The notes beneath the pieces were generated by a model. That model searched no databases. It saw only the letters and a program-made list of their open reading frames with translations, and was not told the origin of the DNA. Positions 31,614 through 35,365 of a stretch of 59,668 nt of DNA are shown piece after piece. The position numbers and the translations under genes are program-made. The stretch spans positions 1 through 59,668 of the forward strand of contig JADLBJ010000026.1 in the NCBI GenBank assembly GCA_020847765.1, read 5' to 3'. Source of the DNA: Dehalococcoidia bacterium (GTDB taxonomy: Bacteria; Chloroflexota; Dehalococcoidia; Tepidiformales; Tepidiformaceae). How positions within the stretch are numbered: the first letter of the stretch is position 1; each line of letters opens with the position of its first letter.

Positions 31614-32984
31614 TTAACGGGCGGTCCAGGTTGTGCCGGTGGGACCGTCCTTTAGCTCGACGCCAAGGTCGGCCAGGCCGTCACGGACGCGGTCCGCGAG
31701 CGGCCACTGGCGAGCGGTCCGCAGATCCGCGCGGAGGGCCACCAGGAGGTCGATGAACGGCGCGGCTTCGCGGCCGGCACCGTCGGCAGGCGCGGCGAGC
31801 CGCAGGCCGAGAACGCCGGCGAGATCGCACAGCAACGCCCGCGCGGTGGCTGTCGATCGCCCTTCGTCGCGGGCACGGTTGATCACGCGGGCCAGATCGA
31901 ACAGAACGGCAAGGGCGACCGAGGTGTTGAGGTCGTCGTCCATGGCGGCGACGAAGCGGTCGCGTGCGCCGGCAGCGTCCAGGGAGTTCGAGTCGGCGGC
32001 GGCTTCGGCGTCGCAGACGAAGGCGGCCTCGCGCAGCCGTTCGGCGCCGCGACGGGCAGCTTCGAGCGCCTCCTCGGTAAAGGTGAGGGGGCTGCGGTAG
32101 TGGCTGCCGAGGATGAAGAGGCGGACGGCGTCGGCACCATAGCGCGCGAGCACGTCATCGAGGCCGACGATGTTGCCGGTCGATTTGGACATCTTCTCGG
32201 CGCCGAGGCGGAGCAAGGCGTTGTGCATCCAGATGCGGGCAAAGGGCGTCTTGCCGGTATAGGCCTCGCTCTGGGCGATCTCGTTTTCGTGGTGGGGGAA
32301 GATGAGGTCCGCGCCGCCGCCGTGGATGTCAATCTGCTCACCAAGGTGGCCCAGAACCATGGCGGAGCATTCGATGTGCCAGCCAGGGCGGCCCGGTCCC
32401 CAGGGGCTCTCCCAGCTGGGCTCGCCCGGCTTGGCGCCCTTCCAGAGGGCGAAGTCGAGGGGGTCTTCCTTTAGCTCGGTCGGGTCGACACGGGCGCCGG
32501 CGAGGAGGTCGTCGACGTTGCGGCGCGAGAGCTTGCCGTAATCGGGCTTCTGGCGAACGCGGTAGTAAACGTCGCCGCCTGAGGCATAGGCGAAGCCCCT
32601 GGCCTGCAGCCCCTCGATGAGCGCGACGATGCGCGGGATCTCGGCGGTGGCGCGGGGATAGAGAGTGGCGGGCAGGACGTTCAGCTGCGCGACACTGCGG
32701 AGGTAGGAGGCGCTGAACTCTTCGGCGAGATCGCTCACGCTGCGGCCGGTGGCGTTGGATCGGTCTATCAACTTGTCGTCGATGTCCGTGAAGTTTTGGA
32801 CATGCCGAACGCTATAGCCGCGGAATTCGAGGTACCGACGGAGGCCGTCGAAGACGACAGCGGGGACGGCGTGGCCGATGTGGCTCCCGGAGTAGGGTGT
32901 GATGCCGCAGACGTAGAGCCGCACCTCATAGGGAGGTGGAGGCAGAGGAATGAGGTCGCCGGTGAGCGTGTCGAGCAGTTTCAT
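31614..32984 (-). CDS. cysS: Cysteinyl-tRNA synthetase
   Basis: 456 residues from ATG 32984; the upstream frame is read-through of the leader. Class I signatures are present: zinc-binding CGITPYSGSHIGHA (Cys plus HIGH-type motif), FTDIDDKLIDRSN, WHIECSAMVLGHLGEQIDIH with zinc ligands, and KMSKSTGNIVGLDDVL. The C-terminal helical bundle and anticodon region are complete. Its leader contains TGGAACC and stem-loops (see findings). cysE lies nearby on the same strand but is separated by an opposing gene. Confidence 0.96.
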   Translation of the reverse strand: MKLLDTLTGDLIPLPPPPYEVRLYVCGITPYSGSHIGHAVPAVVFDGLRRYLEFRGYSVRHVQNFTDIDDKLIDRSNATGRSVSDLAEEFSASYLRSVAQLNVLPATLYPRATAEIPRIVALIEGLQARGFAYASGGDVYYRVRQKPDYGKLSRRNVDDLLAGARVDPTELKEDPLDFALWKGAKPGEPSWESPWGPGRPGWHIECSAMVLGHLGEQIDIHGGGADLIFPHHENEIAQSEAYTGKTPFARIWMHNALLRLGAEKMSKSTGNIVGLDDVLARYGADAVRLFILGSHYRSPLTFTEEALEAARRGAERLREAAFVCDAEAAADSNSLDAAGARDRFVAAMDDDLNTSVALAVLFDLARVINRARDEGRSTATARALLCDLAGVLGLRLAAPADGAGREAAPFIDLLVALRADLRTARQWPLADRVRDGLADLGVELKDGPTGTTWTAR

Positions 32985-33125
32985 GGTGTGGGTTCCACGC
33001 GAATGTGTGGCGGCGGCTCGCCGCGCGAGGGTCGCGAGGCAGGAAGTCGCGAGGGCGCCGGTCAGCGGCGCCCTGCACAGGCGCCGCCGGGCGGGCGTAG
33101 AAAGCGCACCGGGCCCACGTCGCCA

Positions 33126-34661
33126 GTGTACGGCGAGGCACGAGTCACTGTCGCGACGAGCGGGGACGGGACGGGTCTGCGGAGGCGCTGGCCCGCTGCC
33201 GACATTGAAGCCGTGGAGCGCACGATCGGGTCCGGGGGGGCGGGGGGAAGGCTTCTCGTTCTCGCCCTGCTGGTCAACCCGCTCACGCTTGGATTTCTGT
33301 TCTGGCTGAGCTTCCGCCCGGTGGTGGCGATTGGCCCCTCGATGCGGCCAGCGCTCGCGGGCGACCCGGGGATCGGGTTCGAGAACCTGTGGAGCTACCG
33401 TCTGCATGATCCGCACCGCGGCGACATCGTGTCGATCGAGTCGGCCATCACGGAGCCGCAGCTGCTTGCGAAGCGGGTGATCGGGCTGCCCGGGGAGACT
33501 GTCGCAATCGTCGCGGGAGGGGTGCTCATCGACGGTCGGCCGCTGGCGGAGCCGTACGTGACCTACGGGTCCGACGAGGATCTCGAGCCGTGGCTGCTGG
33601 GACCCGGCGAGTACTGGGTGATGGGCGACAACCGGCAGGACAGCCTGGACAGCCGCGCCTTCGGGCCGGTGGACCGGGAGGATTTTCACGGACAGATCGC
33701 GGGGATGTTCTGGCCGCCCGCCGATGCCGACGCGACGGGGGTCGGGCTGCTGGCGCTAGTTGTGCTGCCGACGCTTGGCCTCTCGATCGCGTGTGGGAGG
33801 GCTTCCCTGCGGACGGGGCGCCGGCGCGGGCTTGGACGCCGGTCGGCGTGCTGGGGCGTGTGCCTCTGGCTCCCCGGCTGCTGGCTCGTCGGGCGCCGGT
33901 CCCTGAAGGCGCGCCCGGAAGAGGGATTCATCGGACCGCGGGCCCTGCGTACCGGCGCGGGCGTCACGGCGACCACTGTCCTTCTCGGCTTCATCACGGG
34001 GGCCGTCTTCGGCAGCACCGTTATCGGTGGGGCCTGGTTCTTCCCGTCGGGGCTTGCCCTGGCCGCGGCGAACCTGGCACTCCTGCACCTGCCTGGAAGT
34101 CTGCTCACGCGGGCCCGCCGGGGCGGTGTGGCGATCACAATAGAGCTGTACTGGTGCCTTGGGAGCTGGCTGCTCGGGCAGGTGACCGAGGAGGCTGCGC
34201 TCGCGGCGTGGGCCGCCGTCGTCGTCGCCGGGATGCCGTATGCCGCGCAGCGCATCCACGGCGCACCCCATCTCATCCCTGCGCCGCGCGGCCGCTGGTC
34301 CGGATGGCTGGGCTTGCTGCGCAGCGCCGAGACGACCGTCGTCTGGACTGCCGTCGTCGGCGCGTTTCTCCCCGTCGAGCGCGCCGGTGGGTTCGCGCTG
34401 CTCGGCGCGGCCGCGGCGGTAATGGCCATCGAGGCGGCGCGCGATCGCGATGTCGGCTGGTTTCCGCGAGCGGCGATCGCCGTAGCGCTGGGCGCTCTCG
34501 CCATGGGAGCGGTCGCGACGACGGCCGGTTCCGGCCTGGGGTTCGGGGCCGCCGGAATCATGCTGCTGGCCTTCATCGCTCTCGACCTGCGGCGAGACGG
34601 GATGAGACGCCTGCACGCCGAGGCGGTGCGGCGCGGGGGAGGGTTGGGCGCGCCCGCGTGA
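33126..34661 (+). CDS. lepB: Signal peptidase I fused to a polytopic membrane domain
   Basis: About 511 residues from GTG 33126 (GTG 33213 is an alternative giving 482). After one membrane helix (LLVLALLVNPLTLGFLFWLS) come the signal peptidase I motifs: AIGPSMRPALAG (catalytic Ser), LLAKRVIGLPGETVAIVAGG (catalytic Lys) and YWVMGDNRQDSLDSRAFGPV. Normal enzymes end about here. This one continues for about 300 residues with eight or so membrane segments (TATTVLLGFITGAVFGSTVI, AALAAWAAVVVAGMPYAAQR, AIAVALGALAMGAVATTAGS). I do not recognise the extension. Divergent from cysS. Confidence 0.85.
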   Translation: MYGEARVTVATSGDGTGLRRRWPAADIEAVERTIGSGGAGGRLLVLALLVNPLTLGFLFWLSFRPVVAIGPSMRPALAGDPGIGFENLWSYRLHDPHRGDIVSIESAITEPQLLAKRVIGLPGETVAIVAGGVLIDGRPLAEPYVTYGSDEDLEPWLLGPGEYWVMGDNRQDSLDSRAFGPVDREDFHGQIAGMFWPPADADATGVGLLALVVLPTLGLSIACGRASLRTGRRRGLGRRSACWGVCLWLPGCWLVGRRSLKARPEEGFIGPRALRTGAGVTATTVLLGFITGAVFGSTVIGGAWFFPSGLALAAANLALLHLPGSLLTRARRGGVAITIELYWCLGSWLLGQVTEEAALAAWAAVVVAGMPYAAQRIHGAPHLIPAPRGRWSGWLGLLRSAETTVVWTAVVGAFLPVERAGGFALLGAAAAVMAIEAARDRDVGWFPRAAIAVALGALAMGAVATTAGSGLGFGAAGIMLLAFIALDLRRDGMRRLHAEAVRRGGGLGAPA

Positions 34662-34672
34662 CACGGGCAGGC

Positions 34673-35365
34673 TCAATGGTGCCGTGCGGCCGGGTCGTCC
34701 TGGTGGTGGCCGTCGTGGACCTCGTTGGCGTGCTGCTCGAGGTGGTGGAGGAGGGTGTGCAGCTCCTCGACCTTCTGGTCGAGTTCGTTCAGACGCTCCC
34801 ATTCCGGGTCGGGCAGCCGCTGGATGACACCGTTTGACTCGTCGTGGTAAGCCGCGACGTGGCCGGGCACACCGATCACGGTGGCGTTCGCCGGGACGTT
34901 GGTGACGACAACCGAGCCGGCGCCGACGCGGGCGTTCTCGCCGATCTCGATGGCGCCGATCACCTTGGCGCCCGCGCCGACGACAACGTTGTCGCGGAGT
35001 GTGGGATGGCGTTTGACGCGGCGGGTGCTCGTGCCGCCGAGGGTGACGCCCTGGTAGAGCGTGACGTTCGCGCCGATCTCCGTGGTTTCGCCGATGACGA
35101 CGCCCATGCCATGGTCGATGAAGAAGCGGGGACCGATGGTGGCACCGGGGTGGATCTCGATGCCGGTCAGGAAGCGAGCGACGTGCATTATGCCGCGGGG
35201 CAGGAGGGGCAGGCCGCGCCGGTGGAGCGCATGGGCGAGGCGGTGGGCAAGACGGGCATGGAAGCCAGGGTAGAAGAGGACGACTTCAACGGCGCTGCGG
35301 GCAGCGGGGTCGCGCTGGAGCGTAGCGCGGACGTCGTCGTGGATCTCGGAGAGAAGGGACATCAC
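34673..35365 (-). CDS. cysE: Serine O-acetyltransferase
   Basis: 230 residues. The N-terminal helices ([20 protein letters not shown]) and the left-handed beta-helix with hexapeptide repeats ([51 protein letters not shown]) are typical of the short EpsC-type enzyme. It makes O-acetylserine for cysteine synthesis. The tail is a His-rich extension ([20 protein letters not shown]) unlike the usual short end and might bind metal. Start at ATG 35365 or the adjacent ATG. Its stop lies 12 bases from the convergent signal peptidase gene. Confidence 0.92.

Follow-up and report, generated by a model that had tools for sequence, protein, structure and literature searches.

Architecture of the signal peptidase gene

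The window analysed here, a 59,668-nucleotide stretch of DNA from a Dehalococcoidia bacterium, harbors a gene encoding a type I signal peptidase that continues into a long membrane tail. This architecture is real and unusual. Signal peptidases are the enzymes that trim exported proteins, and those of type I are usually viewed as a free-standing catalytic domain held by one or two membrane anchors. The gene (33126..34661, forward strand, as are all features described below unless stated otherwise) is a single open frame of 511 codons running from GTG to TGA and encodes a protein of 511 aa with a signal peptidase I domain and a polytopic C-terminal tail; its codon usage is the best of the six frames. 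The GTG start is predicted, and no in-frame ATG occurs upstream of residue 73. The fusion proposed in the first-pass annotation was confirmed, the S26 domain (residues 48–196) and the hydrophobic tail lying within one continuous frame. The combination of peptidase and tail was seen in one draft genome (288 contigs, 78.74% complete).

Peptidase domain

Profile cut-offs, catalytic residues and fold alike identify residues 48–196 (33267..33713) as a type I signal peptidase domain (Peptidase_S26) of the bacterial kind. Pfam PF10502 matched residues 48–196 with an E-value of 6.9e-30 and 104.6 bits (curated cut-off 22.9), and TIGR02227 matched residues 48–197 with an E-value of 6.8e-28 and 97.6 bits (curated cut-off 47). 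For TIGR02228, the profile of the SipW/archaeal type, no match of the window protein was listed at E ≤ 1. Hydropathy places an N-terminal membrane anchor at residues 43–62 (33252..33311).

The catalytic motifs reported earlier from the sequence are all present. Ser72 (33339..33341), Met73, Lys116 (33471..33473) and the GDNR box at residues 167–170 (33624..33635) are invariant across 34 aligned signal peptidases. Ser72 is the predicted nucleophile and Lys116 the predicted general base, roles which we take to be those of the S26 family. The AlphaFold model built on the same 34-sequence alignment has block mean pLDDT values mostly of 81–96 over residues 81–190. When the modelled domain was compared with the PDB, 26 chains were matched at E ≤ 0.001 (best E-value 5.8e-8), all of them signal peptidases or SipA.

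C-terminal tail

The tail, residues 201–511 (33726..34658), features about nine predicted membrane helices and has no known relative, judging from hydropathy, profile, PDB and genome searches and low-confidence AlphaFold helices. Hydropathy analysis found seven hydrophobic segments at a lenient cut-off of 1.4 and five at a strict cut-off of 1.6, and none in any of the other five frames of the same DNA. Seven segments were also reached in 32 of 1000 shuffles of the tail residues, so residue composition, beyond order, accounts for much of the segment count. The AlphaFold model of the tail (mean pLDDT 45) contains nine low-confidence helices within residues 279–502. The count of about nine was obtained from the hydropathy segment at residues 205–223 and the modelled helices, with two short ones merged. 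This number is close to the previous estimate of about eight helices. A topology drawn from hydropathy and the modelled helices, with charges in view, puts both ends inside, with 23 Lys/Arg residues in the inside loops and 0 in the outside loops, which total 14 residues.

Searches for relatives of the tail gave no matches in Pfam and NCBIfam (E ≤ 1), in PHROGs (E ≤ 5) or among PDB sequences (E ≤ 10). A fold search with the low-confidence model yielded nothing at E ≤ 0.001; it matched mostly designed proteins and was set aside. With no profile, PDB-sequence or trustworthy fold match, the description of the C-terminal part as having no recognisable family stands. At the genome level, the tail matched one of 61 genomes (its own and 60 relatives), in its own window only; 7 of 393 genomes of the class at E ≤ 0.01 and 5 of 400 genomes of the phylum at E ≤ 0.001, own genome included in both cases and none of the other matches convincing; one of 38 genomes of the order (its own), a set identical to that of the family; and none of 12 genomes with near signal peptidases. 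These sets overlap, and absence of the tail is stated for the searched genomes and libraries.

Of the weak tail matches, L036, L037, L231 and L233 were inspected, while L040 and L232 were left out. L036 falls in the frame of what we take to be a YebC-like gene; L037 is presumably amino-acid permease-like and L231 ABC permease-like; L233 corresponds to no sensible gene. Matches L038 and L041 are interrupted by several stops each, and L039 by one. Peptide-pattern scans with the tail revealed no relative in genome_contigs or plasmids, and a single match in viral_contigs covered the peptidase part only; such patterns miss distant relatives. No fusion of this kind appears in the accessible parts of the literature searched, those of PMC9360617 and PMC10269814 included.

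In size and helix number the tail corresponds to a polytopic membrane protein, and a SipW-like peptidase of the family (L275) carries an added DUF5305 domain. Hence the tail might be a separate functional unit, such as a transporter, a sensor or a membrane enzyme, which uses the fused peptidase for its own regulation or maturation. We consider this unlikely. Neither a family or sequence match nor a trustworthy fold match was obtained for the tail, it was looked for as a separate gene and found only in its own window in its own genome, with no convincing counterpart in related genomes, and it lacks the internal repeat which many transporters have (local score 37 against a shuffled mean of 40).

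Continuity of the reading frame

The first-pass annotation named a frameshift joining two genes as a finding that would overturn the fusion. No stop interrupts the frame, and both six-frame codon scoring and a fine scan across the joint favor no frame switch. The codon model was trained on 26 frames of the window for six-frame scoring and on 25 for the fine scan. In the peptidase part, the own frame scores 0.45 against −0.01 for the best other frame; in the tail, the values are 0.29 and −0.04. For 120-codon windows, the 5th percentile of training genes in frame is 0.10 and the 95th percentile of wrong frames is 0.29. As these ranges overlap, it is the consistent preference for the own frame, and not any single window, that is decisive.

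The least certain stretch covers residues of about 201–265 (33726..33920) and consists of the first tail helix, an Arg-rich loop and a Trp/Cys-rich stretch. Here, 50-codon windows starting at 33696–33831 score from −0.05 to 0.08, and the AlphaFold pLDDT stays below 50 over residues 203–284. The codon signal returns over the remaining 700 bases of the tail. A frameshift is not indicated, but the finding is weakest at this joint, residues of about 200–265. This weak coding stretch, in a draft assembly of such fragmentation and completeness, might be expected if a peptidase gene had been merged with a separate membrane-protein gene, either in assembly or through the loss of a stop codon. We regard such a merger as very unlikely, given the continuous frame and its codon usage, and none of the searches turned up a relative of the putative second gene.

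Other signal peptidases of the genome and family

Three S26 places were found in the genome with PF10502: the window gene, an ordinary lepB on contig C193 (157.7 bits) with a long N-terminal extension, and a SipW/archaeal-type peptidase on contig C76 exceeding the TIGR02228 cut-off. A normal lepB, which the earlier annotation advised looking for, is therefore present elsewhere, and the window gene, standing beside it and the SipW-like peptidase, is an extra paralogue. The extension of the ordinary lepB (L001:1405-3207) is acidic, about 390 residues long and contains a near-repeat, the domain starting from residue 393. The SipW-type peptidase (L003:736-2904) has a Thr/Pro-rich tail and is preceded by a gene for a small exported-looking protein without a family match, a pair which resembles SipW–TasA.

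Across the family (38 genomes), 47 matches exceeded 100 bits. The lowest two belong to the window protein (108) and to a peptidase of genome G024 (contig C651, 121.6), and the other 45 range from 139.8 to 167.3 bits. Motif reading gave 45 distinct LepB-type frames, leaving out two of the 47 matches, by elimination the second copies in G004 and G021. Forty-three of these frames end 42–68 residues after the GDNR box with no hydrophobic segment; the two with hydrophobic tails are that of G024, ending 104 residues after the box with one segment, and that of the window, ending 341 residues after it with five. In a wider set made up of the best 80 S26 loci of genome_contigs and one viral locus, 66 of the 81 were read by motif and have tails of 20–117 aa with no hydrophobic segment, and the remaining 15 end 4–27 aa after the match; the named near S26 matches in genome_contigs are spread over many phyla. 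A strong hydrophobic tail segment was present in 3 of 56 listed loci, namely the window, L117 (the G024 locus) and L047 (one segment).

The SipW-like proteins of the family feature hydrophobic segments and extra domains. In three family genomes, SipW-type peptidases (L272, L273 and L275) carry a DUF5305-like C-terminal domain; the Pfam match, run on L275 alone, is just above the cut-off (29.4 against 29). L003 and L275 both match TIGR02228 above its cut-off.

Genomic context and the G024 relative

The gene is flanked by a divergent cysS (31614..32984, reverse strand; TIGR00435, 465.3 bits, cut-off 340) and by a tail-to-tail cysE (34673..35365, reverse strand; TIGR01172, 233 bits, cut-off 210.65). 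cysE was matched in 33 other genomes of the family, and we compared the loci of 29 of these. In 11 of the 29 loci cysS immediately follows cysE, in 2 it follows after a gap occupied by a chemotaxis-receptor-like gene, so named by eye (L102), or by small frames (L103), and in 16 no cysS match lies in the examined stretch. The site after cysE (32984–34673 in the window; L101–L129) is variable in the family and is taken up by cysS or by chemotaxis-receptor-like, CAP-like and transporter-like genes, all named by eye.

One of the 29 loci, that of G024 (L117:453-1247), has a signal peptidase in the same tail-to-tail arrangement with cysE as the window. Over a 174-residue stretch that takes in the N-terminal anchor, this peptidase is 35% identical to the window protein. 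Its tail is about 75 aa long with one strong hydrophobic segment, and similarity to the window tail was not detected. In quick trees, the branch of the window protein is long and none of its neighbours is supported; constraining it together with the G024 peptidase gave a higher likelihood (p-AU 0.852), a result that shows no clade. The common place by cysE, the divergent domain and the hydrophobic tail suggest that the two peptidases are members of one rare accessory lineage, which the trees neither show nor reject.

The long branch and the variable site between cysE and cysS would also suit a gene that is decaying or was extended not long ago, its tail being read-through or drifted sequence without a selected function, and so would the orphan status of the tail in the genomes searched and the poor coding signal at residues of about 200–265. 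This explanation is improbable, since the codon signal recovers across the remaining 700 bases, the charges of the tail agree with a positive-inside pattern and the catalytic residues are intact.

Proposed role

The explanation which we favor, at about an even chance of being correct, is that of an accessory, divergent LepB-type signal peptidase. Its catalytic domain would lie outside the membrane, with the N-terminal anchor on one side and a lineage-specific bundle of about nine helices on the other. We favor this reading because the catalytic residues and fold are kept and the genome has both an ordinary lepB and, in another place, a SipW-like peptidase; because the own frame codes best throughout, the five other frames lack hydrophobic segments and Lys/Arg residues follow the loop pattern; and because the G024 peptidase by cysE is likewise hydrophobic-tailed and 43 other family frames are not. 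Counted against it are the missing relatives of the tail, the short and dissimilar tail of the G024 peptidase and the long branch of the window protein.

Members of the S26 family use the Ser-Lys dyad to cut signal peptides on the outer face of the membrane, and the window protein would presumably act in the same way. The tail may anchor and orient the enzyme, or it may bind partners in the membrane or some of the precursors. The window copy could thus serve some substrates, with the ordinary LepB carrying the bulk load. An anchor or scaffold would be the least demanding reading of the tail. From the initial suggestion of a fused transporter, scaffold or sensor, we tentatively retain the scaffold; family matches, trustworthy fold matches and functional gene context offer no support for a transporter or a sensor in particular. 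It is conceivable, though a long shot, that the tail is a new polytopic family handing precursors to the attached peptidase, a one-chain receive-and-cleave module marking a rare class of cysE-locus peptidases with fast-changing tails.

Comparison with known systems

The window protein resembles the P-type signal peptidases I LepB and SipS (TIGR02227, PF10502) in the catalytic domain, Ser-Lys dyad, GDNR box and N-terminal anchor. It differs from the usual LepB-type members of the family in continuing for 341 residues after the GDNR box into a hydrophobic tail. The accessory reading being assumed, a LepB-type peptidase that bears a large membrane bundle and is kept alongside a normal lepB would offer a natural way to test if additional membrane parts lead to substrate choice or to a fixed place at the translocon. 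The G024 peptidase shares the place and orientation by cysE, the divergent S26 domain and the possession of a hydrophobic tail, but that tail is short, single-segmented and unlike the one in the window. A precedent for a signal peptidase dedicated to particular substrates is SipW for TasA, according to the accessible part of PMC10269814. Peptidases of the SipW/archaeal type (TIGR02228, some with DUF5305) are similar to the window protein in that their catalytic domain is followed by hydrophobic segments and additional sequence; however, they belong to another S26 branch, match PF10502 weakly and have different tails. Since C-terminal helices and added domains are already known from peptidases of the SipW type, which were seen here as well, the window protein represents an unusual form of an enzyme already described.
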